From: an uncultured Elusimicrobiales bacterium
GTDB lineage: Bacteria > Elusimicrobiota > Elusimicrobia > Elusimicrobiales > Elusimicrobiaceae
Assembly (NCBI GenBank): GCA_944326765.1
Contig: CALVFE010000014.1
Location: forward strand, 1 to 33,468
Direction: 5' to 3'
Length of the DNA stretch: 33,468 nt
Shown here: positions 2,965 through 23,584 of the stretch, piece after piece
Numbering within the stretch: the first letter of the stretch is position 1
Layout: every line of letters starts with the position of its first letter
Notes under the pieces: model-generated
The model's input: only the letters and a program-made list of their open reading frames with translations
Database searches by the model: none
Told to the model about the DNA's origin: nothing
Translations under genes and position numbers: made by a program

Positions 2965-2993
2965 TGGCATACTCCCTAAACATTGTTAAATTG

Positions 2994-5994: not shown

Positions 5995-6090
5995 ATAGAC
6001 CAACGCCTACCGTTTTATCTATTCAGGTTCCTTTCCGAAACAACCGGATCATACGCCGCCGCGGCAGCCTATCATCTGAAGGTTTCTGGA

Positions 6091-6124
6091 AAACGGGGGC
6101 AGGGATACCTCCCAGCCCCCGTTT
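6091..6124 (-). terminator. Hairpin ending the Tad operon, probable terminator
   Basis: Perfect 10-bp arms AAACGGGGGC (6091-6100) and GCCCCCGTTT (6115-6124) extend inward by a further 4 bp (GGGA/TCCC) after one mismatch, with a 4-nt loop. It begins 18 nt past the stop of the thioredoxin-like gene and is followed on the minus strand by a short T run only (GTTTT, then CC). The strong GC stem and its position between two gene blocks support termination. The short U-tract means it may be leaky or bidirectional. Confidence 0.65.
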
Positions 6125-6142
6125 AGCTAAAATTATTTCTGC

Positions 6143-7093
6143 TTAGCAGCTTCCAGCCGCAACGGGCGCTGCGCCCGGCTGAGCGACACTGGGATTCAAA
6201 AACGAGAATCCTTCAATCTTGGAGGCCGAGCCAAAATCCAACTGCACTTTTCCTTCCCATAAGAAAGTCGGCGACGCCCCCACCCCATATTCGCTGACGT
6301 ATTTAGCTTCTTCTTTCAACAGTTCCACGCCTTCTTTATCAAACTTTTTCATGATTTTTTTGCTGTTGATGCCAGCTTCTTCCATAGCCTTATCCCAACG
6401 GCTGGAACGATAATCTTTGTTACGGATTTCCAAGTATTTCCAGAATTTTTTGGGGTAGTATTTGGCAATCAACAATTGGCGAATGTCTTCTTCCCACTCG
6501 GCCGAACCATGCAAACTGCCGAAACCGTTTTGTTCATTATAATCGACGATATAGCGGATTCTGACATCTTTTCCTTCAGGAATTTTACCGTCTTTTTGGG
6601 CTTGAATGACCAAATTCTCCGCAATTACGCCATAAGGGCATTGAGACATTACGAAAATTTCCATTACTCCCGGCTGCCCGGTTTTTCCATTATACACCCC
6701 CTGGCGGGTTTGGCGCGGCAGAATAATAAAATCTTCGTTTTCCTGCGCATACCCGTATTGGAGATGTTTTTCTAATTTAGTACGGATATCGTCTGTTTTC
6801 TTAATCAAATAAAGCGGCAAAAAGCTATAATCCAGATTTGCCAACTTAGGATCCGTAGCAGCATCTTTATAAGCTACTTTGGCAACCACCGGCTCCATAT
6901 CTAAAAACTGGGCAATACCCGCCGTTAGCTGAACATCTTCTTTTCCAGCATCATATTCATCGGATTCCACAATCACGAATTCCGCTTTTGCTTTTTCTGC
7001 TTTTTTAGCGGTTTTAGCCGCTTTCTTAGCAGGCGCCGCAAAGGCAGAACCCGCCACGGCCACCGCTAACAATAACGTCAGTAGTTTCTTCAT
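6143..7093 (-). CDS. Periplasmic thioredoxin-fold protein with CPYG site and C-terminal Cys
   Basis: A 316-residue exported protein. It has a signal peptide (MKKLLTLLLAVAVAGSAFAA), an Ala/Lys-rich linker (21-37), an N-terminal domain of unknown fold (about 38-140), then a thioredoxin-like domain (about 142-295). The active site is MSQCPYG (Cys152), where the second Cys of CxxC is Gly. The cis-Pro loop is GASPTF (273-278). The only other Cys is the very last residue (Cys316, GSC at the end), which could act as a mobile resolving cysteine (inference). Such folds make, break or shuffle disulfides, or bind client cysteines. It is the last gene of the Tad operon, which also encodes a secreted protein with 30 cysteines. 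Start: AGGAG lies 9 nt upstream. A non-catalytic chaperone role is an alternative. Confidence 0.8.
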   Translation of the reverse strand: MKKLLTLLLAVAVAGSAFAAPAKKAAKTAKKAEKAKAEFVIVESDEYDAGKEDVQLTAGIAQFLDMEPVVAKVAYKDAATDPKLANLDYSFLPLYLIKKTDDIRTKLEKHLQYGYAQENEDFIILPRQTRQGVYNGKTGQPGVMEIFVMSQCPYGVIAENLVIQAQKDGKIPEGKDVRIRYIVDYNEQNGFGSLHGSAEWEEDIRQLLIAKYYPKKFWKYLEIRNKDYRSSRWDKAMEEAGINSKKIMKKFDKEGVELLKEEAKYVSEYGVGASPTFLWEGKVQLDFGSASKIEGFSFLNPSVAQPGAAPVAAGSC

Positions 7094-7106
7094 TCCCCCA
7101 TTCTCC

Positions 7107-7376
7107 TTATTTATCTTCTAATTCTACGCGTACTCCGCGGATTCCAATGGCACAAAGCAAATTATATACCAACAGGAAAAAAACAGACGATACCAAGAAA
7201 AGCAAGGTGCTCTGAATCGCCCGCATCACCAACCCCATGATATATGCCATATTTATGACCGCGTCCGGATTGAACACTTCCATAAAGGCAGCTACCAGCA
7301 TAACCACAAATACGGCCAGCGGGAAGACGGAAAACAATACCGTTGAAATGCCAATTTTTTTAATCTCTACTTTCAT
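7107..7376 (-). CDS. Small two-helix membrane protein (DUF3566-like, tentative)
   Basis: An 89-residue protein with two long hydrophobic segments (about 10-35 and 48-78) and a charged N-terminus (MKVEIKKIG). The second helix is followed by VYNLLCAIGIRGVRVELED, a pattern I associate with DUF3566-type small membrane proteins (helix, then a YNL.....GG.EV.L motif). That family link is from memory and tentative. AGGAG lies 5 nt before the ATG. It sits between the HAMP sensor and the thioredoxin-like protein, with 13-24 nt gaps, so it is cotranscribed with the Tad genes. It could be an accessory or stabilising subunit of the inner-membrane platform or of the HAMP protein. No function can be assigned. 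Confidence 0.75.
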   Translation of the reverse strand: MKVEIKKIGISTVLFSVFPLAVFVVMLVAAFMEVFNPDAVINMAYIMGLVMRAIQSTLLFLVSSVFFLLVYNLLCAIGIRGVRVELEDK

Positions 7377-7400
7377 AATCTCTCCTAAAACAAGGCTCCC

Positions 7401-8510
7401 TTATTTTTCAGGTTCCAGCACCAATACAATGCGGTTTTTACCAGCATCGTCGGGCAGTTGAACCGCTTTTACTAAACATTTTACATTTTTATTAATTACT
7501 GTGCCGCGTAAAACCTTCGTCGGGTTTTCCAAGGCCTCCCCTACTACTTGGATAATTTCTTGCTGTCTTCCATCAAAAATATCCAACAAATGCACTCTTT
7601 CTTTTCCGGGCATATTCAATTCAAAATTCGTGTATAAGATATTATTATTTTCATCAATTACCAAAGCCCGGCTGCCTTTTGGAACCGTAACCGCTAAGAT
7701 GGTTTTCCACCAGCGCTGTTCTTTTTCCAAAGACATAATTTCTACGTTTTCCAAGCTCTTAATATCTTCACGGATTTTGGTTAGCAGAGAAGAAACCGCC
7801 ACGGCGACATCGCCAATTTCGTCTCGCCGTTCCGGAAAAGACAAGGTTAAATTATTCAGCGAAACCGCTTCCACACTGTCTTTAAGGGTATTTAACGGAC
7901 GTAAAATTTTCAGCAACAGGAACAAATACAGCACCCCGCCGATGAGTAAAATCATGATCAGCGCTCCGATGGCATACCGTATCATTGAAGAATGAATCAG
8001 TTTTTTAGCGCTTTCCCGCGAAACCGTTACATTTACCACCCCAGCCACCGTATTTCCTTTCGCCAACAGCGGAATAGCCATATCGTACGCATCGCCGTTT
8101 CCGAACAAAAGAGCCCGAGGCAGGCCATCGCGAATAGCCTGTACTACGGAATTGGTGTCAAAACCGACGGAATTATTATAATCCGCATAAGACATTCCTA
8201 AAAATTTCGTATTTTCATGCCAGCGAATAGAACCGTCGTAGTTTAAGTAAACCAGGCTTCGGATGCGGTCATCGTTACGCTGAAGTCCTTTCATGATTTC
8301 AGCTTCGCGGAAAGTGGCCTCTCCCTTAGGGCGGGAAGCCAGCCATTGCACCAAAGTAGGAGCGCGGAAACGCACCATCTCCACCATTTCGTTTTGGAGT
8401 TTCTTATCAAAAACAAATTTGAATAAATTATAATAGAAGAGTCCGCCAATAATAGCGGCATATACCGTTACTAATACGAACCATAAAATCCATTTGGAAG
8501 TCAGTTTCAT
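7401..8510 (-). CDS. Membrane sensor with HAMP and PAS-like domain, no output domain
   Basis: A 369-residue protein with two membrane helices (about 8-30 and 179-202) flanking a periplasmic domain of about 145 residues. This is followed by HAMP (about 203-258, LRPLNTLKDSVEAVS...DEIGDVAVAV) and a C-terminal domain (about 270-369) containing RALVIDENNNILYTNFEL, typical of a PAS fold. No histidine kinase, GGDEF, methyl-accepting or HTH region follows; the protein ends with the PAS-like domain. The layout resembles sensor proteins that act by protein-protein contact. AGGAG lies 9 nt before the ATG. Position inside the Tad operon suggests it senses envelope or pilus status or tethers a regulator (inference). 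Confidence 0.8.
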   Translation of the reverse strand: MKLTSKWILWFVLVTVYAAIIGGLFYYNLFKFVFDKKLQNEMVEMVRFRAPTLVQWLASRPKGEATFREAEIMKGLQRNDDRIRSLVYLNYDGSIRWHENTKFLGMSYADYNNSVGFDTNSVVQAIRDGLPRALLFGNGDAYDMAIPLLAKGNTVAGVVNVTVSRESAKKLIHSSMIRYAIGALIMILLIGGVLYLFLLLKILRPLNTLKDSVEAVSLNNLTLSFPERRDEIGDVAVAVSSLLTKIREDIKSLENVEIMSLEKEQRWWKTILAVTVPKGSRALVIDENNNILYTNFELNMPGKERVHLLDIFDGRQQEIIQVVGEALENPTKVLRGTVINKNVKCLVKAVQLPDDAGKNRIVLVLEPEK

Positions 8511-8522
8511 ACGGTTGTTCTC

Positions 8523-9944
8523 CTATTTCATCAATTCTTCGACTTTACGCAAGCCCAAATCGGCATCACTATTACCCGGATCCAACTGTTTCGCTACGAT
8601 CCACGCCTGGCGGGCACGTTCATAATCGTCTTGGTTAAAAGCGTCTAAACCTTCGATGTATTTGGCACGGGAAGCTGCGCTTGCTTCGGCGGACACACGG
8701 CTTACGGTACCGCCTAAAGTAGGCAGGGTTTCATTGGCGCCCACTGCCCCGATCGAAGACGTAGAACCGGGAATGGCGCCGGGAATCACAGATCCCTCAG
8801 ACAAGCCCGGCACCGAACCGCTTACCGTAACGGTTTCAATCGGCTCTTCTTCCAAGGCTTCAGCAGCGGCTTGTTCGGCTTTCTGGGCTGCTTCTTCGGC
8901 CTTTTGGGCAGCCTGTTCGGCCTTTATCGCCTGCTGCTGTTTAACGCGCAGGTGATTTTCCTTGGCGTTGCGGGCTCGTTTAATCAAACCGTCCATCGTG
9001 GAAGAATCCGCCCCCCACTTTTTAGCATTCGTCCAGTAAGAAATAGCCTGGTCAAACCGATTGGAATTATAAGATTTGTTCCCCGCATTATAATACCCCG
9101 CCGCAATTTCGTTTTTCAGCTGGGACATATATTTCTGCACGCGCGGATCGCCCGGTTGAATCTTGGTAATGCGTTCAAACACGGCATAAGCTTCCACAAA
9201 TTGCCCTTTATTATAAAATTCCAGCGCTTGCTTCATAGAATCTGCAACCTGCTGTTTGCGCAATTTATTTTCTGTGTCGGAAATTTTAGCCACCAATTTG
9301 GGATCATCTTTACGCATTAACAGCGCGTTATACCAGGCATCTAAGGCCTTTTGATAATCGCCTTCGTCATAGGCTACGTCCCCGCGGCGAGTATATTCTT
9401 TAGCAATATCATAATCAATCTTCCGCTTCCATGCCTGTGCCTTGGAGTTACCGGGCTGGATCGTCAGAATTTCGTTTAATTTATCATTGGCCTCTACCAG
9501 GCGGCCGCTGTCATAGAGCCGAATGGTTTCCTGGAACTTAGCCTCGATCACTTGCGCTTCGGAAATGGTACCATAGGTTCCCATATGATTGGCTTGTTTA
9601 GCCAAAGTTTGCGCTTGTTTGAAATTGGGATCAATACTCAAAATGGTTTGCGCCATTTCCTGTGCCCGCTGGTAATCGCCGTGTTTATAGAGCATATACG
9701 CATTTTCATACACCATGCGCAGCGTATAATTTTGAATGCGCTGCTTTTCCAGCTGAACGGTGGAAAGATACTGCTTTTTTTCTTCCACGTCGTTTAAGGT
9801 ACCCATGGAAATTTTGCTCAAATCCAAAAGCATTCCTTCTTCTTTTCCGTGTTGCCGGACGGGAATTTCCTTTCGGAACGCCGCCGCTTGAACCGACACT
9901 GCCGCCAAGGCAAAAACCAAAAGAAAAGCAAGATTTTTTTTCAT
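8523..9944 (-). CDS. Periplasmic TPR-repeat protein, possible TadD counterpart
   Basis: A 473-residue exported protein. After a signal peptide (about 1-20, MKKNLAFLLVFALAAVSVQA) come several tetratricopeptide repeats across about 75-320, seen as repeated Y..G.Y..A...W/F patterns (for example YKHGDYQRAQEMA, YDEGDYQKALDAW, YNKGQFVEAYAVF). An Ala/Glu/Gln helical stretch follows (about 337-372) with the repeated unit AQKAEEAAQKAEQAA, then a Ser/Gly/Pro-rich linker and a final TPR at about 430-470. TPR proteins such as TadD are standard Tad components that help assemble the secretin; this one is larger than typical TadD and has no lipobox, so equivalence is inferred from position behind tadC. AGAGG lies 7 nt before the ATG. 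Confidence 0.8.
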   Translation of the reverse strand: MKKNLAFLLVFALAAVSVQAAAFRKEIPVRQHGKEEGMLLDLSKISMGTLNDVEEKKQYLSTVQLEKQRIQNYTLRMVYENAYMLYKHGDYQRAQEMAQTILSIDPNFKQAQTLAKQANHMGTYGTISEAQVIEAKFQETIRLYDSGRLVEANDKLNEILTIQPGNSKAQAWKRKIDYDIAKEYTRRGDVAYDEGDYQKALDAWYNALLMRKDDPKLVAKISDTENKLRKQQVADSMKQALEFYNKGQFVEAYAVFERITKIQPGDPRVQKYMSQLKNEIAAGYYNAGNKSYNSNRFDQAISYWTNAKKWGADSSTMDGLIKRARNAKENHLRVKQQQAIKAEQAAQKAEEAAQKAEQAAAEALEEEPIETVTVSGSVPGLSEGSVIPGAIPGSTSSIGAVGANETLPTLGGTVSRVSAEASAASRAKYIEGLDAFNQDDYERARQAWIVAKQLDPGNSDADLGLRKVEELMK

Positions 9945-9954
9945 ACGTTATCCT

Positions 9955-10845
9955 CTAAAATCCCATTCCCCCTCTGACCAGCCCGCTGATCATGGGAGCT
10001 AAAATTAAAATAAAAATCGTGGGGAAAATAAACATAAAAAGCGGAAATAACATTTTAGTAGAAGCCTGGGCGGCCAGCTTTTCAGCACGGCTCAACCGGC
10101 GCGAACGCAAATCAGACGAGAAATTGCGCAGTAAATCCACCAAACTGGTACCGAGTTCGTCAGATTGAATAATCAAACTTACCAATGAACGCACTTCCGC
10201 CACTCCGGTTCTGGCCGAAAAACGTTCCAACGCTTCACGGCGCGAGTACCCCAATTTAATTTCATTAATGGTTTTTTCCAATTCTTCTTCTAAAATCGTT
10301 TTTACTTTAGCGATCTTGATAATTCTCTCAAATGCCGTTAAATAATCCAAACCAGATTCAATAATCAAAGCGGCCAAATCCACCGTGGTGGAGAAATTAC
10401 CCAAAATTTCCGCTTGCCGCTTTTGGATTTTGCTCTTGATCAACACGTCCGGCACCATAAAACATACCGGCACCAAAATAACCGGCCAAACGGATTGGAA
10501 CAAAAGCATAATCGCCGCTGGAATCACTAAGGCAGAGATGACTTTAGTATATAAAATATCCACAGGCTGCGGGTTATCAGGGCTGCCCAGCTGCATATGC
10601 ATTTCTTCCAAACTTTTCTCTAAATGAAAATTATGCAGGCAGAACACGGCCAACCGGTCTAAAATTTTCTCTTCCGGTTTTAAACGAGCGAAACTGGAAG
10701 TGGACTTAAAACGGCGCACCGCCACATCTACAATTTCCTCTTTCTTAGGCTTGGGAGCCAGCAATCCAAAAATGGTCAGGAACACCGCAAACATTCCCAC
10801 CGCCAACAACAAATTCAGCCCCAAGGTAAACACTAAATTGTTCAT
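9955..10845 (-). CDS. tadC: TadC, inner-membrane platform protein of the Tad pilus
   Basis: A 296-residue polytopic protein with the T2SSF (GspF/TadC) domain. The first membrane helix is at about 6-30, a central hydrophobic pair at about 98-130, and the conserved cytoplasmic T2SSF region runs about 150-265 (ILGNFSTTVDLAALIIESGL, LGYSRREALERFS, QSDELGTSLVDLLR), followed by a last helix (about 263-287). TadC works with TadB as the platform on which TadA ATPase drives Flp pilin assembly. It starts 2 nt after the tadB stop, so translation is probably coupled. It has the usual length for TadC. Confidence 0.93.
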   Translation of the reverse strand: MNNLVFTLGLNLLLAVGMFAVFLTIFGLLAPKPKKEEIVDVAVRRFKSTSSFARLKPEEKILDRLAVFCLHNFHLEKSLEEMHMQLGSPDNPQPVDILYTKVISALVIPAAIMLLFQSVWPVILVPVCFMVPDVLIKSKIQKRQAEILGNFSTTVDLAALIIESGLDYLTAFERIIKIAKVKTILEEELEKTINEIKLGYSRREALERFSARTGVAEVRSLVSLIIQSDELGTSLVDLLRNFSSDLRSRRLSRAEKLAAQASTKMLFPLFMFIFPTIFILILAPMISGLVRGGMGF

Positions 10846-10847
10846 AA

Positions 10848-12470
10848 CTATACCCGCACTTCTCCCATCTTTTTAAGTACTTTCATACCGATGCCAATCC
10901 AGATGACACAGAATAAAAACACAAAAATTCCCACCGGGCTGGCATAAAAGGAAATCATCTGCGTCGGATTAAAAATAAACATAACAAACATCATTACAAA
11001 CGGCATAATGCTTACCACGATGGACTGAATCTTTTGCTGAGCCGTCATGGCTTGCAGTTTTTCTTCGAGCTTGCTTTCCTCACGAATATTTTCCACCAAA
11101 CGCGAAAAAATAACCGTCAAATTACCGCCGACCTGACGCTGAATGATAATCGCTTTAATGATATAAGAAAGCATACGGCTTTCCACCCGGTCAGACAGAC
11201 CGTCCAACGCCTTTTCAAAGGGAGTTCCCAACTGATAGTTCTTCACAACCAGTCCAAATTCATCGGAAATAGGCGGCAGCATATCTCTCGAAACCAGCTC
11301 AAAGCCCTGCACGATATCCATACCGGAACGCAAAGAGTTCGAAAGCAAAATTAAAGCGTCCATCAACTGTTTATTGACACGTTTGCCGCGGCTTTTCTTT
11401 AAAGCGTCCAACACAGCGCTGGGCATACGAACCCCTACTACCCCGCCCACAAACACCACGAGCAGAAAAATAAATACACCCGTAAATCCCCCCGTCATCA
11501 AGCCAAGCAGCAGCCCGAAAACGGCAAAAAGGCCTATGGTTCCAAATACGATATATTTAATATCAACCGTAACGAATTGACGGTTGAAATCTTCCGCCCA
11601 TACTATGCTTTTTTGCTTATATTCTTCTATCATGCGCAAGATATTTTCGCGCTTATTTTCCAACAACAAATAAACGGCTAATCCCGCCAACGAAGCACCT
11701 AACACTATTAAAATCAAACTAACCAGCCGATCGGCATAAGTCGTGCGATAAATCTTCGGATCCGGCGGATACGAGGGGATAGAAGTTCCTAAAAACTGGG
11801 AAAATAAATGGTTAGACAACACCACTACCGCCATCACAGACTGACGATACTTATTTTCCCGCTGAGAAATCGGACTGGAAAAAGATTCGATGGTACTGAA
11901 AAATTCGTTATTAATCAATTCAAATGTAGAAAGCATCGAACGCGCCCGGCCGTCCATGCTGTCTTTCATAATCAAAAGCTGGTTGCCGCGCAATAAATCT
12001 TTATTCAAACGATCCAACGTGGCCATTAAATTGATTCGGTTCCCCACAAACCCACGGGAAAGCTGATCCAATACGATTGGCTGACTGGGATCCAACGATT
12101 TAGCAGCACGATCCAAAAATAAATATACGTTAGAAAACGCCTGGCGCCATAAATCGACCTCGCTGTACGTTCCTTCGTTGGGAACATATACCACTTTATT
12201 TTTATCCATACGCTCGAGCTCGGCCGCAAACCATTCCGGCATTTTGACGGTACGTCCTGCAGAAGCCCCACACACATTCGGAAGCGTATAGACTTTTTTA
12301 TCAGCGGCCAGGTTTACATCAAAAAACTCCGCCAAAATACGCATTTTTTCCTGGGCACACTGAATTCGCGCCAAATCCTGTTTTCCCAGTGCACGGGCAC
12401 ACAGCGACTCGGGAACCGCACCCGCCAAAAGGAAAACCCCCAACAGCGAAATATAAACTTTTTTCATCAT
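10848..12470 (-). CDS. tadB: TadB platform protein with an extra exported N-terminal domain
   Basis: A 540-residue protein in two parts. Residues 1-25 look like a cleavable signal peptide (MMKKVYISLLGVFLLAGAVP...). Residues about 26-245 form a soluble, mostly helical domain with two Cys (38, 67) that I do not recognise. From about 248 it is a TadB: membrane helices at about 248-270, 305-325 and 328-347, then the T2SSF domain (about 365-480; LLSNSLRSGMDIVQGFELVS, RQVGGNLTVIFSRL) and C-terminal helices at about 483-530. Typical TadB is about 300-320 residues without the N-terminal part. The ORF extends to 12608, inside the upstream gene, but I chose ATG 12470, which has AAGG 6 nt ahead and gives a normal signal peptide. 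ATG 12467 is the alternative. tadC follows after 2 nt. Confidence 0.88.
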   Translation of the reverse strand: MMKKVYISLLGVFLLAGAVPESLCARALGKQDLARIQCAQEKMRILAEFFDVNLAADKKVYTLPNVCGASAGRTVKMPEWFAAELERMDKNKVVYVPNEGTYSEVDLWRQAFSNVYLFLDRAAKSLDPSQPIVLDQLSRGFVGNRINLMATLDRLNKDLLRGNQLLIMKDSMDGRARSMLSTFELINNEFFSTIESFSSPISQRENKYRQSVMAVVVLSNHLFSQFLGTSIPSYPPDPKIYRTTYADRLVSLILIVLGASLAGLAVYLLLENKRENILRMIEEYKQKSIVWAEDFNRQFVTVDIKYIVFGTIGLFAVFGLLLGLMTGGFTGVFIFLLVVFVGGVVGVRMPSAVLDALKKSRGKRVNKQLMDALILLSNSLRSGMDIVQGFELVSRDMLPPISDEFGLVVKNYQLGTPFEKALDGLSDRVESRMLSYIIKAIIIQRQVGGNLTVIFSRLVENIREESKLEEKLQAMTAQQKIQSIVVSIMPFVMMFVMFIFNPTQMISFYASPVGIFVFLFCVIWIGIGMKVLKKMGEVRV

Positions 12471-12495
12471 ATAGAACCTTATCAAAACCTTAATA

Positions 12496-14805
<2,310 letters not shown>

Positions 14806-14810
14806 AGATT

Positions 14811-15557
14811 TTATTCCACAATTTCAACCGTAATAAACAGGAACAAAGAACGCTGTTCTTCCGTTACGTCTTTGTTTTTAAACAAAAGGCCGATCAACGG
14901 AATGCGGCCTAAAAATGGCACGCGGTCTTCAGATACGTTACGAGAACTGTTTTTCAAACCGCCGATTACCAACGTTTCGCCGCTGTTGATTTCCACATGG
15001 GTTTCCACGTCGCGGTTCGTGAAAGAAGGCGCCGTCGCCGTACCAATTACTACCGTTCTGGAATAGTCCACCGTAGAAACCGACAGCTGGACTTGCAAAT
15101 CAATAATGTTATTACGCTCTGGAATAATTGTTGGCAGTACATTGAGCAAGATACCATATTCTTCCAGCTGCGAACCCACTCCCTGGTTGTTTACAATCGG
15201 TATCGGCACTTTACCGCCCACGGTAATTTTGGCGCTGTTACCGGAAGACGTTACAATTTTAGGATTAGAAAGCACTTGGGCGCGGCCTTCCGTTTCCATC
15301 AAACGAAGACGAGTCGTAACCGCCGTTTTGCGTTCAAACTCTCCCAGGGACAAAATTCCGGGAATGGTGGCTTCTTCAAAATCAAAGAGCTGGTTCCATG
15401 AAAACCCTTTCACACTTTGCATGGTTCCGCTGATTTCCACCACATCGGCGCTGACAGCCACCAAACGCGTTTTTTTGGCAAACGCACTGGCCGGCAGCAG
15501 CACACTGAAAAGTAATACCGCAAGAGATATCTTAACTATAAAGTTTTTATTCGTCAT
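14811..15557 (-). CDS. rcpA: Minimal Tad secretin (RcpA/CpaC type)
   Basis: A 248-residue exported protein with a signal peptide (about 1-27, ending ASAFA). Nearly all the rest is the secretin core: VSADVVEISG (35-44), QVLSNPKIVTSSG (94-106), ITVGGKVPIPI (111-121), and the C-terminal signature NSGETLVIGGL (191-201) plus VPFLGRIPLIGLLF (213-226). Secretins form the outer-membrane channel through which the pilus exits. RcpA/CpaC proteins are usually about 450-500 residues, with N-terminal BON/N-domains reaching into the periplasm. Those are absent here, and the ORF opens with a good signal peptide and AGGA 5 nt upstream of the ATG, so it is not an obvious truncation. The periplasmic connection may be supplied by CpaB or the TPR protein. 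Confidence 0.9.
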   Translation of the reverse strand: MTNKNFIVKISLAVLLFSVLLPASAFAKKTRLVAVSADVVEISGTMQSVKGFSWNQLFDFEEATIPGILSLGEFERKTAVTTRLRLMETEGRAQVLSNPKIVTSSGNSAKITVGGKVPIPIVNNQGVGSQLEEYGILLNVLPTIIPERNNIIDLQVQLSVSTVDYSRTVVIGTATAPSFTNRDVETHVEINSGETLVIGGLKNSSRNVSEDRVPFLGRIPLIGLLFKNKDVTEEQRSLFLFITVEIVE

Positions 15558-15571
15558 ATTTGTCCTGTTCT

Positions 15572-16324
15572 TTATTGGAATAATTTCTCAAAGGTTGCGA
15601 TTTCCATCAAATAGTTGGTTACGTCGCCGTGCGAACGCAAGATGACGGATACATCTCCTTCCGACTGCGCCAACGCCAGATACTGCGCATCGCGCGGTGA
15701 AAGCGCCAAAGACAAAGCCGAGCTGTCCGAATAGGCCGCCGCATCTTCTTCTTTGTTCTTCATAGCGTTGGCAGCCTTGGCATCCAAACCTTGGCCCAAG
15801 TCCGACCCGACTCCCAGCACTTTTACATTCTGCAACAACGTTACGGTTACTTTCTGCCGCGTACCGCTTTTCATTACCGCTTCAAACGTAAGCAGCACAT
15901 CGATGTTGTCATCGGGCTTAATCATGCTGGCCGTAGCGATCGGCACATTAATGATAAACCCTCTCATCTGCACCGGGATTTTACTCGATAAGCCTGCCTC
16001 GGGAGACAGCGAGGTAATGGCATATTTAGAAATTTGGTTGCCTTTCGGGATCTGAATGCGCGCCACCGCGTTCTCGATTGCTTTAAAATCCGCGTCTGTC
16101 GTGTAGGTAAAAGCGTCTTTCTGCAAATAGGCAGCCGGAACCGGCACGGTTTTAATAAAATCGCGCTTAATGACTTCGCGTTCCTTAATATCGCGCACCG
16201 GCACGAACACTTGTTTAATGTTCTTGGATGCATTCAGCTTTTTTTCCGCGCTGCTCACAATCATCGCATACACAATGGCCGCCAGAATGGCTACCACCAA
16301 CGGAAGAAAGATTCCTTTTTTCAT
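15572..16324 (-). CDS. cpaB: CpaB/RcpC family Tad assembly protein (SAF domain)
   Basis: A 250-residue protein with an N-terminal membrane helix (about 4-24), an SAF domain (about 38-110, VPVRDIKEREVIKRDFIKTV ... IPKGNQISKYAI) and the RcpC/CpaB C-terminal domain (about 118-235, with GFIINVPIATASMIKPDDNI and VTLLQNVKVLGVG). The family belongs to the outer-membrane/periplasmic part of the Tad apparatus next to the secretin. It lies directly before the secretin gene, as in most tad clusters. AAGGAG lies upstream of the ATG. Length is slightly below the usual 260-300 residues. Confidence 0.92.
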   Translation of the reverse strand: MKKGIFLPLVVAILAAIVYAMIVSSAEKKLNASKNIKQVFVPVRDIKEREVIKRDFIKTVPVPAAYLQKDAFTYTTDADFKAIENAVARIQIPKGNQISKYAITSLSPEAGLSSKIPVQMRGFIINVPIATASMIKPDDNIDVLLTFEAVMKSGTRQKVTVTLLQNVKVLGVGSDLGQGLDAKAANAMKNKEEDAAAYSDSSALSLALSPRDAQYLALAQSEGDVSVILRSHGDVTNYLMEIATFEKLFQ

Positions 16325-16367
16325 TTCGTCTCCTTAAACAGCAACTTTTAAATTTAATCAATCAAAT

Positions 16368-16856
16368 CTATTTGGTATCGGAACTCAAATACGCTTTTTC
16401 AACCGGCATTCGCGCCGTTGCCTTAATTCGGCGCACGCCCTCCCGGCGGGGCTCACTGGCCAGCACATAGCTGGTACCCGGAAACATCAGCCGCACTGGA
16501 TAGGTTACCGTTACAACCACATCTTCGTGGCGATGTCTTTTATACATAGGATCGGTTCCAGTCGTTTCTACTTTTACGTTCACACCGATCCCGCCTGCTT
16601 TGCTGCCAAACACTTTCTGTTTGGCTTGGTTAATCTTTTGCGTAATAACCGTTCTGTCCGGCCGGCCGCTGGGTTTTTTGACTGCCACCAGCGAACCGAT
16701 ACGGGCAAACTCATAGGAAGCGTGGTTTGCAATAATCGTGTGGTAGGCGATGTTGCCATATTCAAGAACGAAAAACACCATCAGCATAAATACTGGCAAA
16801 ATCAGCATCAGCTCCGCCGTTACCTGCCCGCCACACTTCCTACGAAATTTGTTCAT
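16368..16856 (-). CDS. tadE: TadE-like pseudopilin
   Basis: A 162-residue protein with a basic leader (MNKFRRKCGG), then GQVTAELMLILPVFMLMVFF, the TadE/TadF prepilin pattern with a Glu five residues after the cleavage-site Gly, and one hydrophobic helix. The rest is an exported domain of about 120 residues. TadE is a minor pseudopilin needed for Flp fibre formation. GGGG lies 4 nt before the ATG. It follows the Flp pilin gene by 11 nt. A second TadE-like gene is at 432-980 in the left cluster. Confidence 0.88.
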   Translation of the reverse strand: MNKFRRKCGGQVTAELMLILPVFMLMVFFVLEYGNIAYHTIIANHASYEFARIGSLVAVKKPSGRPDRTVITQKINQAKQKVFGSKAGGIGVNVKVETTGTDPMYKRHRHEDVVVTVTYPVRLMFPGTSYVLASEPRREGVRRIKATARMPVEKAYLSSDTK

Positions 16857-16867
16857 ACAACCCCAAA

Positions 16868-17089
16868 TTACATTTCGTTCATGCTGCCAGTAATTTTGCC
16901 TTTGACTTGTTCAAACAAATCCGGCATAAACTTCTTAATCAACACACCGGCCAACCCGGCCACGCCCACGACTACTACGAGCATCAACACATATTCAATC
17001 GTGTTCTGGCCTTCTTTTTTCTTCAGGCAGCCCAAAGCTTGCGCTTTCAAGGCGTCCATTCTGGTTTGTAAAGCAACGATAAACTTCAT
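16868..17089 (-). CDS. flp: Flp-type pilin, probable major subunit
   Basis: A 73-residue prepilin with a 27-residue basic leader ending KKKEG, then QNTIEYVLMLVVVVGVAGLA as the start of the mature hydrophobic helix, and a short amphipathic C-terminus. The G/Q junction, Glu at mature position 5 and Tyr at position 6 are the Flp signature. Among the three Flp-like proteins in the window this one has the best ribosome-binding site (perfect AGGAGG at 17098-17103, 8 nt from the ATG), consistent with high expression. It precedes tadE and cpaB. I saw no prepilin peptidase gene (TadV/CpaA) in the window, so the peptidase must be elsewhere. Confidence 0.93.
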   Translation of the reverse strand: MKFIVALQTRMDALKAQALGCLKKKEGQNTIEYVLMLVVVVGVAGLAGVLIKKFMPDLFEQVKGKITGSMNEM

Positions 17090-17097
17090 ATGAGAAT

Positions 17098-17103
17098 CCT
17101 CCT
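17098..17103 (-). promoter_or_regulatory. Consensus ribosome-binding site of the major pilin gene
   Basis: A perfect AGGAGG on the minus strand, 8 nt from the ATG at 17089. Neighbouring genes use shorter or weaker sites, so this marks the pilin as the most strongly translated cistron of its part of the operon (inference). Confidence 0.75.
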
Positions 17104-17116
17104 GATTTTTTTAAAA

Positions 17117-17305
17117 CTATCTGCTTGCGTCATATTCCATCAAAATTACTTTGGCTCCTTCCTCAAACTGCTGCGGAACCATATAGGAATAAAGAACGTA
17201 GAAAGAAATAATCGCCGTAAACAATCCCGCCGCCGTTATGATATATTCTACCGCGGTTTGTCCTTTTTTGTTTAAGAATTTTTTCTTTCCCGCTCCATTC
17301 TTCAT
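17117..17305 (-). CDS. Second Flp-type pilin (62 residues)
   Basis: A 62-residue protein with a Lys-rich leader (MKNGAGKKKFLNKK), then GQTAVEYIITAAGLFTAIIS and a short polar tail. G/Q junction, Glu at mature position 5 and Tyr at 6 match Flp pilins, but the helix starts TAVEYIIT rather than TIEYVLML, and the tail is acidic. It starts 3 nt after the PorV-like gene with no clear ribosome-binding site, so it is probably translated by coupling and less abundant than the pilin that follows. Likely a minor pilin or initiator subunit. Confidence 0.85.
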   Translation of the reverse strand: MKNGAGKKKFLNKKGQTAVEYIITAAGLFTAIISFYVLYSYMVPQQFEEGAKVILMEYDASR

Positions 17306-17308
17306 ACG

Positions 17309-18277
17309 TTAAAATTCAATTGCCAGCGCAATCTGCTGCGAAGTTCCCAACGCCCCAAACGGCGTAACCGCATAGTCGATAGACGCCCCGTAACCAAACA
17401 GTTCCGAGCTGTAAATACCAAACCCGAACGACACTTTAGACGTTTCTTCCAAGCCCAAGCTCTTTACTAAACTGTCGTCTTCGTTGATACCGGTATCTTC
17501 GCGGGTATAATATCCCACACGCAAGTCAAACCGAGCGACTTGGAGCAAATCTTCGGGGATATGCACTTCTAATCCCACCCCATAACGGGCTTTATCATCG
17601 CGGTATTTCATATATTCGCCCGAAATGGTAAAGTAACGCGTATTCAAATCCGCACCCAAGCGCAAGCCGCGCGGCATTTCCTCTTTGTCGCCGATATTGA
17701 CCAACGCTCCGCCTAACCCCAGCCAATTGACCAGACGCAGCTTCGCGCCTACGTCGAAACCAACGTTATTGTAATGTTCCGAATCCAAGCTCTCGGAGAT
17801 ATATTTAACCGTACCGCCAAGCTGCAGTTTTTGGTCAAAGAAACCGCGCGCGATCGACAAACTGCCTACAAAATTCTGTACCGGCGTACCGATTTCCGGG
17901 TTAGGAGCACCGGTTTCATCACGGAAATCAAACCCGTCCATATCCATATAATTGATCGTCAAACCAATGATGGTTTTGCCAATGGGCTGCAAATAGGCCA
18001 GCGTACGCGCTTTATACCCTTGTAAATAATCCAAATACGCGAATTGGAGTTCCCGGGTCGTGGCCGAAGCCGCACCCGCCGGGTTCCAAAACAGCGCTTC
18101 CGGGCCGTCAGCGATAGATACAAAGGCATTACCTAAGGCCTGGGCTCTGGGGGAGCCGGCGTCAATCTTCAAAAACGCACTCGCGCTGGTACCGGCGTCC
18201 GAATCAATCGCCGCCGCGTTTACGCTTACAAGACCGACCGTTAAACAAGCAATTAAAACTTTTAATTTTATATTCAT
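17309..18277 (-). CDS. PorV/PorQ-like outer-membrane beta-barrel (UPF0164 family)
   Basis: A 322-residue exported protein with a signal peptide (about 1-23). The conserved N-terminal pattern of PorV/PorQ proteins is present at about 32-70: FLKIDAGSPRAQALGNAFVS, then ADGPEALFWNPAGAA. The rest has alternating hydrophobic strands and ends in an aromatic residue (LAIEF), as in outer-membrane barrels. In Bacteroidetes PorV carries type IX secretion cargo at the surface; related proteins occur in phyla without a classical T9SS, where their role is mostly unknown. Here it directly follows a giant protein with a T9SS-like C-terminal Ig-type domain and precedes the pilin genes, so it may export, anchor or display that protein (inference). 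GGAAAG lies about 10 nt before the ATG. Confidence 0.85.
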   Translation of the reverse strand: MNIKLKVLIACLTVGLVSVNAAAIDSDAGTSASAFLKIDAGSPRAQALGNAFVSIADGPEALFWNPAGAASATTRELQFAYLDYLQGYKARTLAYLQPIGKTIIGLTINYMDMDGFDFRDETGAPNPEIGTPVQNFVGSLSIARGFFDQKLQLGGTVKYISESLDSEHYNNVGFDVGAKLRLVNWLGLGGALVNIGDKEEMPRGLRLGADLNTRYFTISGEYMKYRDDKARYGVGLEVHIPEDLLQVARFDLRVGYYTREDTGINEDDSLVKSLGLEETSKVSFGFGIYSSELFGYGASIDYAVTPFGALGTSQQIALAIEF

Positions 18278-18356
18278 AAATTTAGTTTCTTTCCGGATAC
18301 TCCGGGCTCTTAATTAAGTTCCGGCCTCTCACAGGCCCCTTGGTACAACCACTACG

Positions 18357-18385
18357 CCCTTAGGGGGCTTTACGCCCCCTCAGGG
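18357..18385 (-). terminator. GC-rich hairpin directly after the giant gene, possible attenuator
   Basis: Perfect 7-bp arms AGGGGGC / GCCCCCT with a 5-nt loop are extended by CCCT/AGGG beyond one mismatch. The stem begins one base after the stop codon of the giant gene. No T-run follows on the minus strand, so it is unlikely to be a full intrinsic terminator. It may instead stabilise the 3' end of the upstream message or reduce read-through into the PorV-pilin genes. The rest of the 108-nt gap shows only a small GGCCT/AGGCC hairpin (18322-18336 region) and no convincing promoter. Confidence 0.45.
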
Positions 18386-21300
18386 TTACGGCACCAAAAT
18401 CTTGACTACTTTCTGGCAGTGCTCGCGGCCATTCTGGGCTTTAAAGTCCACCAGCCCGAAATAGACCCCGCGCGCTACTTTCTTACCGTGCTGGTTCGTA
18501 CGATCCCAGCGGCAGCGCAATGCCGCATTGCGGATATTGGGGAAAGCCGCCAAATCGTCCGCGTCCATCTGGGTAGAACCTTCCGGCGTATTATCCGGAT
18601 TAAACTGCAGGCTGCTGCCCATGGTTACCTGGTAGTTATTGGCGTCCACACAGGTATAATTGCTGTCGCGCACCAAGTCGCCGGCCAAGTTGAAGAACTT
18701 AATTGATACCGTTCCGGGCACGGGCATCTTGGTAATTTCCAGCGTACCTTTGGAGGCATCGCGCAGCGGGTTCGGATAGAAGAACACCGTCTTCTCCCAA
18801 TCTTCGCAGACGAAGCGTCCGTCGCCAATGGCTACCGTAGCCTTATGCAGGTTCTGGTATTCATAGGTATCAGCCACCTTGTCAATGCTCCACAAAGCGC
18901 TGTTGGTGCTGGAATCGTCACTGCCTAAAATTTCACCAGTTACGCTGTCAATATCGGCGGAGTTGAGAGCCGTTACGAAGCGGAACGGATACGTTCCGTC
19001 CGGCACTTCCTGCTGGGCATAATCGCGCCCGTCCCACACTTCTTCTATAAGTGTCGTAGCGGGGCGGATACCCACAATGGCTTTCACCAACACTTCGTGG
19101 ATATCTTGCACTTCCGTACCCGTGGTGGGGTTGCGCAGCGTACCTTTTTGGTAATCATAAATTGTGGTACCGGGTTTGAAAATCTGGATCGCCACTTTCA
19201 TCGGAACAGAAATCTGGTAACCGATTTTCATATCCGTATTGCGTTGGGAAAGGGCATAACCGTCCGCCTCCAGCAAGTCGAACACTTTCAACAGGTCGGC
19301 GTTTACCGTTACGCTCTTGACGGTTTCTTGGTATAAGCCCGGATCCGGATAGTTTTTGGCCGTCAAGCGGATTTCATAAATGCCCGGCTTTACATAAATA
19401 CCGTTATTGTCCGTACCGTCCCAATAGATCTTGCGGGTTACATTCGGATCAAAATTGCTGGTATTTACAATCGTCATGGTGGAGAGATATTTGCAAACCT
19501 CTCCCGCCGCCGCATTGCGCTGGGTAAGCGTGCCCGTATTGCCGTAGCACATATTGGGCTGCAAGGCTACAATGGCCACTTCCACCGTTGACGCACGCGA
19601 CACCGCAAAGTTAATCTCATAAGGCGGAATGAAGATCGGCCCGGTAGAGGCATTGAATAACTGCGGCGAATTCGGATATACCACTACGGATCCATCTAAG
19701 AAATATACAGGTCCGCGGGTTACATTAATTTTGCTGATGGGTTTTTCCGTTGCATACAGATAATCTTCCTGCACCACTTCCGCCGCCGTTTTGAACGGAG
19801 CTCCCGGCAAATAGTTTGCCGCCGGATTGCTGCCGGCAATCGGCTCGCCGCCGTTGGCATAGTAACGATCAAATGCTTCATCGGAACGGGCAGAGATGAA
19901 GAACGGGTATTGGCCGTCCGGCACCATCTCATACGGACACTGTTTCAAGTCCGTAGCTCCCATACATTGTGCGATTTCTTCGGACGTATGGCGTTCGGTG
20001 GAAGGCGTCGGATTATAGAAATACAACGCATCCCATTCTTCCGTAATCAGCATACCGTCGCCCACTTTGGTGGCGGAACGGTCAAAGGTTTTTACCGGCT
20101 GTAAGCGCACGTCCAGCACATTGGACGCCGCAGCCGCCGCCGTGGCTGGATAGTTGGTAAACGTCGTATCATTGACATAGATACAAGCCGCGCCGTTGGT
20201 ATTCACTTTGGCCGGATCCACATAGCAGGTATTTCCTGCATTACAGGTTCCGCCGCCTACAGCTGTAAAAATAGCGGTATCAGTGGTGCGGTCGCAAATA
20301 CGCGGAGGCCACGCGGCAGTGGTATCAGTCGTCACGTTTACTTCTTCCCGTTTCAAACTTACCGTATATTGTTCCTCTCCGGGTACTACGGACCCTGCTA
20401 CGTAATTCGGGTTTTCCGCCACCGTAATCGTATCGCGCGTATAGGGGTTGGCCGTCCCCGTAAGAGAGGTAACCGTCCCTAACGATAAATTGGTCAGCAC
20501 AATCGGCGTCGTATTTCCCTGCTCAAATACATTGGCCGTGGCCAATGTGTTGGTATAGCCCGTCGCTACCACGGAAGAAATTACCGTATAGTCGTTATAT
20601 TCGCCCGTGGTGGAATTATACGCCGGGATTACCACATCCTTATTATAAATGTTGACCTGTACATTCATCGCTTTAGACAACATATAAGAGATGGTGGCTT
20701 TGGCTTCGCTGTCGCCATACACATCGGTCGTAGCAACATCTACCACGCGGTACATATCCACCGGGAACACGGCCGAGGCCTTATTGGTTACCGCCGGGAA
20801 CATGGCATCTTTGGTTTCCACGGTAAACATATAGGTACCGGGGGTAACCATACGGCCCTGGTCATCGCGGCCGTCCCACGACAGCGTGTTCATCTGCTGC
20901 GCTACCTGGGTGACCCCTTCTTCGGGCGTTAAATGTTTAACCGGTACGCCGGCTGCGTTCTCGACGCGCGCCACTACAGTAGAGTCGCGCACCACCGAGT
21001 ATTTGAAAATAAACGGATCTAATCCATAAGCCGTCGGGCTGGAACCAACCGTAGAATAGCTGACGGGCTGAATGGTAATATCCACTAATCCGCGTTCAAT
21101 GGCAATCTGGCCTACGGAGTAGTTTTGGGTTTTCACACCCGTAAAGCACTGTCCGTTGATCTCCAAGTTTTGCCCAGAGCAGGTTGCGCCCGCCGTAAAG
21201 GCAGGTGTTCCGTTGCCACCTACGGCATTGAGATATTTTCCATTATAAGGTACTTCCGCCCACAGCACATACACATAGTTACCGTCCGGCATGGGGGCGC

Positions 21301-23422
21301 CGTAAGCGAAACTCTGTGTACAACCGGCTTCTACACCGCAAGTAGTACCGTCTGACATCGTTTCATTGAAAGCATAGGTGCGGGTACAACCATCTTGAAT
21401 GCCGCACAAACCGTCCCACTTAGAGGTAAAGTTCATACGCGCCGTACGGTCTTCTTCCGCACGATACACCAGCGTACCCGTATTATCTAGAACCGTAGGC
21501 CCGGTTCCGGTCGGTTTAGAAGAATCCGTTACCAAATTGGTGGCCGTACCTGCCCCGCTGAAAGTAGTACCGGGGGTATAGATTTCCCAATACACTTTAG
21601 CCGCTTCCGTAGGAACATAATTAATAGAAGCGTAAGCGGTAGATTTCTTATTTAAACCAGTAACCACAATATCCGTCAGTTTGAGAGGATCTAACGATAC
21701 TTGGCGCGTAACGGCGCGGGAGAAGTCCACCCCCGGCCATTCGTCTTGGGCTTTAGCTTGAATAGCAGCAATGTAGTTGCCCGCGGGGAGCAAGAGGCCA
21801 TTATCATTGCGCCCGTCCCACGAGTCGAACTCTACAATCTGCTTATCTTTGTCCGTCCCTTTCATTCCCTCGCCTATACGCGGCTGCCAATCCACCAGCG
21901 TACGAACCTTCTGTCTGGCCTCCAACTCATCATCATTATCTGTGTTTCCGTAATCGATATTATCGCCATTAGACGCATCAAAAATGGCAATACGCACGTC
22001 AGAATCTTTACTTAACCGATACGCAAACGTATAAGGCTGGGCAGAAACCGCTGTAATATCCCCCACCACCGTAGGAGTACTGCGCACGGTGTGCACATTG
22101 GTTACGTCCACCTGTATCGGGATCTGGTTCATACCCGGATAGGCGATTGTGGACGAAAATTCAATTTTGTCGGTAATGATGTTATCGCCGGGAGAATCGG
22201 TGGCCACAGTCGCGCGGAAGGCAAAATTTCCATTGGATTTACCAAACTCACCCGAAATTTCGTAAGAACCGTCCCACGCCGCGCAGAACGGAATCGGCTG
22301 GTTGGAACGATAGCCGTCGTTATTAAAAATCACGAACGAGCAGGTAGAATTTGGACAGTTAGAATAGTTGGAACCCGTATTGCAGTTTGATGAGGCAACT
22401 TTATTATTGGTACCAAACTCATAGCAGGTATTTCCGACCAATTCATATTTGGGAGCAGGACAGGTTACCCCGGAATCTGCACTGCCCGGACAAGAATAAG
22501 AACCGCAGCGGGCTTTTTCCACATCGGGGTACAAGTCAATCGTACGGACAGCCGGGGTTTCTTCCGGATTCTCTACGTTTTTGCCATTATAGTATTTAAC
22601 GACATCAAATTTTACCTGCTGCAACGGAAATGCAATCGAATAAGTACTCTGCGCCATCGGTTTGTTGGTGCAGTACACATTCATACACAGCCCCAGGCAG
22701 TGGTTCGGATACTGGTTGGAAGTGGTGGGCGTTACCGAAGGATACGGCTGGTCGTATTCAATCAAGGCCGAGCTGACCCACGGATCATTAGTTGTAGCGC
22801 TGCTGCCGGGCTGAATGCCAAAAACGAAACTGCGGTTATCCTCGTTTGGATCGCCGCTGGTGCTGGGAGAAACATCAATGGAAAAACCGGGAGAAACATT
22901 GTATCCCGAAACAACAAACGGATAAAAAGTATAAACATCATAGCGAACCGGAATTGTTCCACCTTCTTCTTCATCGGGGTTTGGTTCTTGCACTATGCGG
23001 GTGGATTTCGTCATCGTATAAAACATACTGCCAATAGCATATTGTCTATTGGAGTAACGGAGCGAGTAATTCGCCAAACCGGGGTTAGAGCTGGGCCATT
23101 TTTCTAAAACCTCTTGCGACCCCAAATAAATCAAATTTAAAGAACCGTCTGCATAGGATTGTCCCGCGGTATAGTTGGCGGCGACATCACTTGATATAGC
23201 ATTATTAGAACTTGTGCCGGATTTGCCGTATATTTCGGAGGAATAATCGCAATACATTTCCTCGTTGCTAACAGGGTTGTCTTTATAGAAAACGCCGGCA
23301 TAACGGACCTCGGCCGTTTGGGCAAACAACGGCACGGAAGCCGCGGCAAATAACGCAGTTAAAACGGCGCAACACGCCGCTTTACCCAGGAAAACCCGAA
23401 GTAAACTGTTGATTTTTTTCAT
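18386..23422 (-). CDS. Giant secreted protein with FlgD/T9SS-type Ig-like repeats
   Basis: A 1,678-residue exported protein and the first gene of the Tad operon. Signal peptide about 1-34. After a Cys-rich N-terminal region (about 35-440) come repeated units resembling FlgD Ig-like domains, each with a Y.(L/V)S...V.(V/I).I(F/Y) strand pair and a WDG(R/T)(D/N)..G...PG.Y.. hairpin. They lie at about 466-561, 600-726, 806-871, 911-1181, 1270-1358 and 1400-1486. The last unit (1549-1678) starts YPNPLRD and ends GVYFGLVDF...KVVKILVP, close to T9SS type A sorting or FlgD-Ig domains. There are 30 Cys after the signal peptide, an even number. I chose ATG 23422 because it gives a standard signal peptide; ATGs at 23437 and 23449 are possible. 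Likely a surface or pilus-associated adhesin or stalk (inference). Confidence 0.85.
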   Translation of the reverse strand: MKKINSLLRVFLGKAACCAVLTALFAAASVPLFAQTAEVRYAGVFYKDNPVSNEEMYCDYSSEIYGKSGTSSNNAISSDVAANYTAGQSYADGSLNLIYLGSQEVLEKWPSSNPGLANYSLRYSNRQYAIGSMFYTMTKSTRIVQEPNPDEEEGGTIPVRYDVYTFYPFVVSGYNVSPGFSIDVSPSTSGDPNEDNRSFVFGIQPGSSATTNDPWVSSALIEYDQPYPSVTPTTSNQYPNHCLGLCMNVYCTNKPMAQSTYSIAFPLQQVKFDVVKYYNGKNVENPEETPAVRTIDLYPDVEKARCGSYSCPGSADSGVTCPAPKYELVGNTCYEFGTNNKVASSNCNTGSNYSNCPNSTCSFVIFNNDGYRSNQPIPFCAAWDGSYEISGEFGKSNGNFAFRATVATDSPGDNIITDKIEFSSTIAYPGMNQIPIQVDVTNVHTVRSTPTVVGDITAVSAQPYTFAYRLSKDSDVRIAIFDASNGDNIDYGNTDNDDELEARQKVRTLVDWQPRIGEGMKGTDKDKQIVEFDSWDGRNDNGLLLPAGNYIAAIQAKAQDEWPGVDFSRAVTRQVSLDPLKLTDIVVTGLNKKSTAYASINYVPTEAAKVYWEIYTPGTTFSGAGTATNLVTDSSKPTGTGPTVLDNTGTLVYRAEEDRTARMNFTSKWDGLCGIQDGCTRTYAFNETMSDGTTCGVEAGCTQSFAYGAPMPDGNYVYVLWAEVPYNGKYLNAVGGNGTPAFTAGATCSGQNLEINGQCFTGVKTQNYSVGQIAIERGLVDITIQPVSYSTVGSSPTAYGLDPFIFKYSVVRDSTVVARVENAAGVPVKHLTPEEGVTQVAQQMNTLSWDGRDDQGRMVTPGTYMFTVETKDAMFPAVTNKASAVFPVDMYRVVDVATTDVYGDSEAKATISYMLSKAMNVQVNIYNKDVVIPAYNSTTGEYNDYTVISSVVATGYTNTLATANVFEQGNTTPIVLTNLSLGTVTSLTGTANPYTRDTITVAENPNYVAGSVVPGEEQYTVSLKREEVNVTTDTTAAWPPRICDRTTDTAIFTAVGGGTCNAGNTCYVDPAKVNTNGAACIYVNDTTFTNYPATAAAAASNVLDVRLQPVKTFDRSATKVGDGMLITEEWDALYFYNPTPSTERHTSEEIAQCMGATDLKQCPYEMVPDGQYPFFISARSDEAFDRYYANGGEPIAGSNPAANYLPGAPFKTAAEVVQEDYLYATEKPISKINVTRGPVYFLDGSVVVYPNSPQLFNASTGPIFIPPYEINFAVSRASTVEVAIVALQPNMCYGNTGTLTQRNAAAGEVCKYLSTMTIVNTSNFDPNVTRKIYWDGTDNNGIYVKPGIYEIRLTAKNYPDPGLYQETVKSVTVNADLLKVFDLLEADGYALSQRNTDMKIGYQISVPMKVAIQIFKPGTTIYDYQKGTLRNPTTGTEVQDIHEVLVKAIVGIRPATTLIEEVWDGRDYAQQEVPDGTYPFRFVTALNSADIDSVTGEILGSDDSSTNSALWSIDKVADTYEYQNLHKATVAIGDGRFVCEDWEKTVFFYPNPLRDASKGTLEITKMPVPGTVSIKFFNLAGDLVRDSNYTCVDANNYQVTMGSSLQFNPDNTPEGSTQMDADDLAAFPNIRNAALRCRWDRTNQHGKKVARGVYFGLVDFKAQNGREHCQKVVKILVP
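21275..21406 (-). repeat. Tandem 22-residue Cys-containing duplication inside the giant gene
   Basis: Two adjacent 66-bp units encode CGIQDGCTRTYAFNETMSDG plus two residues, and CGVEAGCTQSFAYGAPMPDG plus two residues. They share the pattern C-G-x3-G-C-T-x2-aromatic-A-aromatic-x3-M-x-D-G. They are inserted into the hairpin of the second Ig-like repeat, between its WDG and its DGNYVY motif. The DNA has diverged, so the duplication is old and its pattern was kept, notably the Cys pairs. Confidence 0.7.
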
Positions 23423-23483
23423 TGTACTCGTATCCATTTGGGGAAACATTCCCTTCTCAAAATTTAATTTTTTACAAATCTTT

Positions 23484-23506
23484 TTGCGCTAAAAAAATAC
23501 GCGCAA
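23484..23506 (-). other. 5' UTR hairpin of the giant gene
   Basis: Perfect 6-bp arms TTGCGC / GCGCAA flank an 11-nt AT-rich loop, in the leader between the promoter at 23556-23584 and the start codon. It could affect stability or translation of the operon message. No known riboswitch fold is recognisable. Confidence 0.35.
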
Positions 23507-23555
23507 GTAGGCGACTGGTTATACATATAAACAGACGCCGACACAATACTCTTAA

Positions 23556-23584
23556 ATTTTTGCAACTTTTGGGGCAAATGTCAA
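23556..23584 (-). promoter_or_regulatory. Candidate promoter of the Tad operon
   Basis: In the 231-nt gap before the giant gene, the minus strand has a perfect TTGACA -35 box (23579-23584) and, 17 nt on, AAAAAT (23556-23561), matching 4 of 6 consensus -10 positions. The transcript would have a leader of about 125 nt. The rest of the gap holds only the leader hairpin at 23484-23506 and AT-rich sequence. The -35 and spacing are convincing; the -10 is weak, which would suit an activated promoter. Confidence 0.55.

Follow-up and report, generated by a model that had tools for sequence, protein, structure and literature searches.

The window analyzed here is a complete contig (G000:C14; CALVFE010000014.1) of 33,468 bases from the 1.49 Mb genome, G000, of an uncultured Elusimicrobiales bacterium, and its minus strand carries a Tad (Flp) pilus operon that begins with a gene for a giant repeat protein and a gene for a PorV-like outer-membrane barrel. 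The conserved arrangement of giant, PorV and Tad genes among relatives is far from chance, and the first two are fixed parts, at the operon's start, of a lineage-wide, specialised variant of the Tad system; that the variant is a specialised one had been supposed in a first-pass annotation of the window. We consider it fairly likely that the giant is a surface adhesin of the type IX secretion system (T9SS) type, served by a dedicated PorV shuttle and locked into the Tad operon of this Elusimicrobium-like gut bacterium. Below, L and G numbers denote compared loci and genomes, and f numbers families.

The giant and PorV genes are fixed parts of the Tad locus

The gene order giant, porV, flp, tadE, cpaB, secretin, tadZA, tadB, tadC, TPR, HAMP is kept in 20 sister-family loci and in all same-genus loci with enough sequence, and the same order recurs in loci from more distant families of the class. 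In a sample of 199 genomes from the phylum, a high-scoring TadZA was found in 89, with the giant upstream on the same strand, across a gap of 3.5-6.2 kb, in 74 of them; the giant without TadZA was found in none of the 199. The 15 genomes with TadZA and no upstream giant all have TadZA within about 3.8 kb of the contig start or, where this was checked, of the contig end. Four families of the same class (f3, f4, f6 and f9) lack both genes, so that the two are present or absent jointly within the class. The synteny check proposed in the first-pass annotation thus returned no relative with the giant and PorV genes at unrelated sites beside an intact Tad core, the giant lying just upstream in every locus whose assembly runs through this point. 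The same annotation had held that known Tad loci are without these two genes, and this is borne out by 74 Tad loci from other phyla, none of which has a giant or PorV gene nearby (flanks of up to 10 kb per side).

The two genes and the most conserved part of the giant are placed as follows in the window.

18386..23449, minus strand: giant protein, 1687 amino acids (aa), with a signal-peptide-like start, followed by an N-terminal domain, some seven Ig repeats of the FlgD type and a C-terminal T9SS type-A-like sorting domain
18386..18883, minus strand: the giant's C-terminal domain, its most conserved part, proposed to serve SprA/PorV recognition and anchoring; one predicted disulfide, C1548-C1678
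17309..18277, minus strand: PorV/PorQ-family 14-stranded outer-membrane barrel (NF033709), proposed dedicated shuttle/anchor of the giant

Some genomes have a second giant, either apart from the Tad locus or in tandem with it (L063, L065, L067 and L074; G063:C4, G127 and G136), and in G019 and G023 the final 45-46 codons coincide at the ends of two contigs, as though the two copies were similar enough there to break the assembly.

The giant, its neighbor and a distant gene resemble T9SS components

The Ig repeats of the giant match FlgD_ig (3.5e-20) and bear WDGR/WDxT repeat motifs, and its start is of the Sec type, with no pilin-type leader. The C-terminal domain shows the motif PNP...NLAGDLV...W..N..G..VA.GVYF...KKILVP; TIGR04183, the T9SS type A sorting domain, matches 15 of 21 C-terminal domains of the giant family (E<=0.01), and the domain of the window's own giant matches models of PorZ (5.5e-8) and of the PorU C-terminus. 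Its AlphaFold2 (AF2) model is beta-rich, with a predicted local distance difference test score (pLDDT) of 77, and the top Foldseek hits are T9SS PorZ and PorU at weak E values of 0.002-0.006; a profile search of the PDB with the domain gave no T9SS match. As modeled, the domain would be an Ig-like beta-sandwich of the T9SS type. Conservation along the giant is uneven, as identity between close relatives is 94-97% at the C-terminal end versus 51-65% over the first 200 residues, which include a stretch that is present or absent among close relatives. The ratio of nonsynonymous to synonymous substitution (dN/dS) of 0.08-0.11 indicates purifying selection on the giant, yet lies above that of the Tad core, the pilins excepted.

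The product of the adjacent gene scores 92.1 bits on NF033709, over the curated cut-off of 90, and PorV is its sole profile match in the PDB. Its AF2 model has 14 strands (pLDDT 77), and in a blind Foldseek search of the PDB the best two hits are the T9SS PorV chains 8gl6_F and 6h3i_F (E=1.4e-10 and 4e-9), with FadL behind; one of these two structures comes from a complex solved with a bound client domain. By profile score and predicted fold, the giant's neighbor is a true PorV-family barrel, which we propose to be the dedicated shuttle or anchor of the giant. Apparent fusions were rejected: in L044 (G045) one ORF covers both giant and porV, but the final residues of the giant are missing while porV retains its signal peptide, which suggests a frameshift between the two neighboring genes, and the 770-aa porV and 881-aa HAMP open reading frames (ORFs) of L137 reflect GC-rich upstream read-through.

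A third component lies outside the Tad locus, namely an SprA-like protein of about 1.8 thousand amino acids that was matched in 61 of 61 relatives, including all 37 same-genus genomes. Its matches to TIGR04189 range from E 6e-33 to 2e-42, and a profile also matches PDB SprA (1e-18) in collinear stretches; by these profiles it is a clear homologue of SprA. Profiles were needed here, as phmmer searches of the PDB with a single PorV sequence or a single SprA-like sequence gave nothing. The SprA-like gene occurs in 163 of the 199 phylum genomes, normally as a single copy; it is at L119:267-5918 (G000:C12) in the window's genome, and its absences across the phylum are mainly in reduced f10 genomes.

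Pairs of sorting-domain and PorV genes are common in the sister family

Genomes of the sister family (for example, G037-G052) have 2-22 TIGR04183 matches and 9-36 PorV-family matches each. Among the matches listed, 62 of 149 sorting-domain genes in this family are followed within 600 nt, on the same strand, by a PorV gene, as against 0.17 expected, and because of this the giant-PorV pair is recognized as one instance of a common unit. Within the gut genus, TIGR04183 matches occur in one of 25 genomes only; in G092, of the same genus, 800 kb of sequence, about half of the genome, contains one sorting domain and one PorV, the Tad-linked pair. Since the gut genus has almost no other pairs and yet retains the SprA-like gene, the giant-PorV pair may be the main remaining client of the SprA-like protein there, although the other half of G092 might hold clients with diverged C-termini.

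Pairing of client and shuttle has precedents. In Flavobacterium johnsoniae the type B clients pair with PorP/SprF shuttles, as in SprB-SprF, while a single PorV serves every type A client (PMC12618676). The locus described here similarly has a gene for a large surface protein followed by its own outer-membrane shuttle gene, with the differences that the shuttle is of the PorV family, that the sorting domain is type-A-like and that the pair lies inside a pilus operon. Compared with T9SS PorV and SprA (6h3i, 8gl6), the PorV-family fold is the same and homology to SprA runs along the chain, with the system now in Elusimicrobiota and the SprA homologue at about 1800 aa versus 2400 aa. The T9SS has been described as confined to Bacteroidota (PMC12618676, PMC4793230). 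In the literature searched, we found no report of a T9SS or PorV in Elusimicrobiota and nothing linking the T9SS to Elusimicrobia Tad systems.

Paired cysteines and a DsbA-like protein

The first-pass annotation described the giant as rich in cysteine, which is overstated: its 32 cysteines in 1687 aa amount to 1.9%, a value near the 75th percentile among the long ORFs of one genome from the same genus. Twelve of them are nevertheless conserved and behave as pairs, being gained or lost together at positions 260/315, 1548/1678 and 1052/1089, while Cys 255 and Cys 389 are kept almost throughout. The last gene of the operon was annotated as encoding a thioredoxin-fold protein; the present searches gave weak DsbA profile matches alone (E=0.05), and its active site holds a single cysteine (CPYG/CPFG) rather than a CXXC. 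In L137, the outer locus with full coverage of this stretch, the DsbA-like gene, the 260/315 pair and the 1548/1678 pair are all absent, and this joint absence suggests that the DsbA-like protein may serve the giant.

A Tad system with reshaped components

Elusimicrobia were already noted to have Tad systems (Denise et al. 2019, PMC6668835), and the locus contains the TadA ATPase, TadB and TadC with one T2SSF domain each, TadZ, a secretin, CpaB/RcpC and TadE, together with Flp pilins and a TPR protein, as in other Tad loci. Pilins 1 and 2 are recognized by their class III motifs (G-QTAVEY and G-QNTIEY), and a profile match, slightly below the cut-off, was obtained for a third Flp only. A TadV prepilin peptidase was found neither within the locus nor close to it, an absence compatible with a Tad pilus, whose published model permits tadV to be located separately (PMC6668835). 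The gut genomes tested each have a single A24 prepilin peptidase away from the Tad genes (in the window's genome at G000:C8:7268-7612), which may serve all pilin systems.

Beyond the giant and PorV genes at its start, the locus departs from other Tad loci in lacking its own prepilin peptidase, in adding a HAMP sensor, a DsbA-like protein and kinases, and in the proportions of its core components. The secretin, at about 240-290 aa in loci of the class, is half the length seen in the 74 loci from other phyla (mostly 410-600 aa), and TadB is extended to about 480-690 aa versus mostly 285-330 aa. TadZ and TadA are fused, as listed in the first-pass annotation, but this is not unique to the locus; fusions of about 720 aa also occur in Omnitrophota and Bdellovibrionota.

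A proposed route of export and display for the giant

The sequences establish what the locus contains, in which order and how well conserved, along with the homology of PorV, SprA and the C-terminal domain; from these we infer the following export route, anchoring, oxidation, adhesin role and joint action with the pilus. Sec would deliver the giant to the periplasm, where its paired cysteines would be oxidized, possibly by the DsbA-like protein of the operon. The SprA-like translocon would then pass the C-terminal Ig-like domain across the outer membrane, and the PorV-family barrel encoded by the next gene would collect that domain and retain the giant at the surface, with its conserved C-terminal repeats at the membrane and its variable N-terminal end directed outward as an adhesin. 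Assembly of the Flp pilus by the Tad genes would run concurrently, governed by the island's own two-component sensors.

Several observations weigh against a T9SS-type exit. The matches of the SprA-like protein to TIGR04189 remain under the curated (equivalog) cut-off, which is why we call it SprA-like; its gene lies at a distance from the Tad locus and is also found in classes without the giant. The C-terminal domain of the window's own giant falls under the TIGR04183 threshold, which is reached by relatives alone. PorL/GldL, PorM/GldM and the C25 sortase (PorU) were not detected above cut-off, in searches that gave no match in control genomes either.

More ambitiously, and only tentatively, Elusimicrobiota may possess a T9SS-like route that combines an SprA-type translocon with numerous private client-PorV pairs and has either another PorL/M motor or none; one pair would have become obligate in the Tad pilus, joining the assembly of the pilus and the display of the giant into one machine. 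Families of T9SS translocon, shuttle and sorting domain occur across a second phylum, beyond Bacteroidota, with client-shuttle pairing of the kind reported for type B clients, and one such pair is a fixed part of an operon for a Tad pilus. If the proposal is true, the origin of the T9SS, the way it would be energised should the usual motor be missing, and the attachment of gut Elusimicrobia to their surroundings become testable.

We regard as unlikely a reading in which export or carriage of the giant falls to the Tad machine, with exit through the secretin, decoration of the pilus or its tip, and PorV helping in the outer membrane only. This idea, close to that of the first-pass annotation, draws on the giant's fixed position in the Tad operon, on their joint presence and absence within the class and on the secretin, TadB and TPR genes, whose form departs from that in other Tad systems. 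Set against it are the Sec-type start and the T9SS-type C-terminal domain of a protein that has no pilin-type leader, and the many client-plus-PorV arrangements that the sister family keeps away from Tad genes. A T9SS-like exit is probably the likelier one because the giant has that C-terminal domain, a PorV-family partner of its own and an SprA-like translocon elsewhere in the genome.

Co-regulation offers an equally improbable account, in which giant and PorV form a T9SS-type surface module expressed with the Tad pilus and never in physical contact with it. That such pairs are common in the sister family, and that some genomes have extra giants outside the Tad locus, would fit such a module, but across a whole class the linkage was never seen broken, the pair invariably being flanked by the GGDEF side and the pilins, which exceeds what co-regulation needs. 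Very improbable is a FadL-like transporter paired with a giant that serves the pilus channel as an Ig scaffold, in the periplasm or on the inner face, and replaces the missing N-domains of a secretin of just 248 aa, for although PorV and FadL share a fold, T9SS PorV outranks FadL in the fold search, the barrel exceeds the PorV cut-off and the giant's N-terminal part varies as a surface-exposed region does.

Organization of the locus and its continuation

An ORF check of the window shows that all 14 listed genes, from 23449 down to 6143, are open and lie on the minus strand; gene content and order stand as given in the first-pass annotation, with Pfam/NCBIfam support for FlgD_ig (giant), PorV_fam, TadE, RcpC/CpaB, Secretin, a CbiA/AAA_31 and T2SSE fusion, T2SSF (TadB and TadC), TPR and HAMP, and with the same order in relatives. 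The giant and porV are separated by 108 nt and the remaining genes by 2-43 nt, while the gaps to the neighbors are 204 nt (giant to the upstream GGDEF gene) and 139 nt (DsbA-like gene to the downstream histidine kinase). This spacing and the conservation of the genes are consistent with the single transcript that had been predicted; matches from a promoter and terminator scan of the locus were no better than chance and lend it no support. Rfam and tRNA searches found nothing. Besides giant and porV, the operon comprises the following genes, with the start of tadB placed at 12470 rather than 12608.

17117..17305, minus strand: Flp pilin 1, processing motif KKG-QTAVEY, conserved
16868..17089, minus strand: Flp pilin 2, processing motif KKEG-QNTIEY, conserved
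16368..16856, minus strand: TadE-like pseudopilin (PF07811, 8.7e-11)
15572..16324, minus strand: CpaB/RcpC (PF16976, 4.1e-18)
14811..15557, minus strand: minimal secretin, 248 aa (PF00263, 6e-42)
12496..14805, minus strand: fused TadZ-TadA ATPase, N-terminal CbiA/AAA_31, C-terminal T2SSE (1.2e-61)
10848..12470, minus strand: TadB, 540 aa, with a long N-terminal extension and T2SSF in the C-terminal part (3.2e-17)
9955..10845, minus strand: TadC (PF00482, T2SSF, 1.2e-15)
8523..9944, minus strand: TPR protein in a TadD-like position (TPR families)
7401..8510, minus strand: membrane sensor with HAMP (PF00672, 1.2e-5, its only match) and no kinase or cyclase domain
7107..7376, minus strand: small membrane protein, no family match, position conserved
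6143..7093, minus strand: DsbA/thioredoxin-like protein, single-Cys CPYG site, weak DsbA profile matches (E=0.05), MSQCP-G invariant

The first-pass annotation drew the lower limit of the system at 6091. The genes it placed above that point hold, and the Tad island extends past it to base 1 of the window, which is the contig end, with two-component genes, a third Flp and TadG/TadE-like genes.

4099..6003, minus strand: sensor histidine kinase (dCache-HAMP-HisKA-HATPase) with which the island continues, conserved
2994..4115, minus strand: receiver-histidine-kinase hybrid, island continuation
2272..2970, minus strand: LuxR-type response regulator, island continuation
2092..2268, minus strand: third Flp-like pilin (Class_IIIsignal 5.7e-4, just under the Pfam cut-off)
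977..2089, minus strand: TadG-like protein, by position and N-terminal helix only, without a Pfam match; conserved
432..1022, minus strand: second TadE-like protein (PF07811, E=0.0017, under the cut-off)

The HAMP sensor without an output domain (7401-8510) is conserved class-wide, and by eye its C-terminal part resembles a PAS domain. Upstream of the giant, a GAF-GGDEF diguanylate cyclase gene (23654-25153) together with sbp and tsaD keeps its position in both families. In a close relative (L101:3237-13994) the island continues downstream with five long proteins of 506-1293 aa, which have no credible Pfam match, and a TPR gene.
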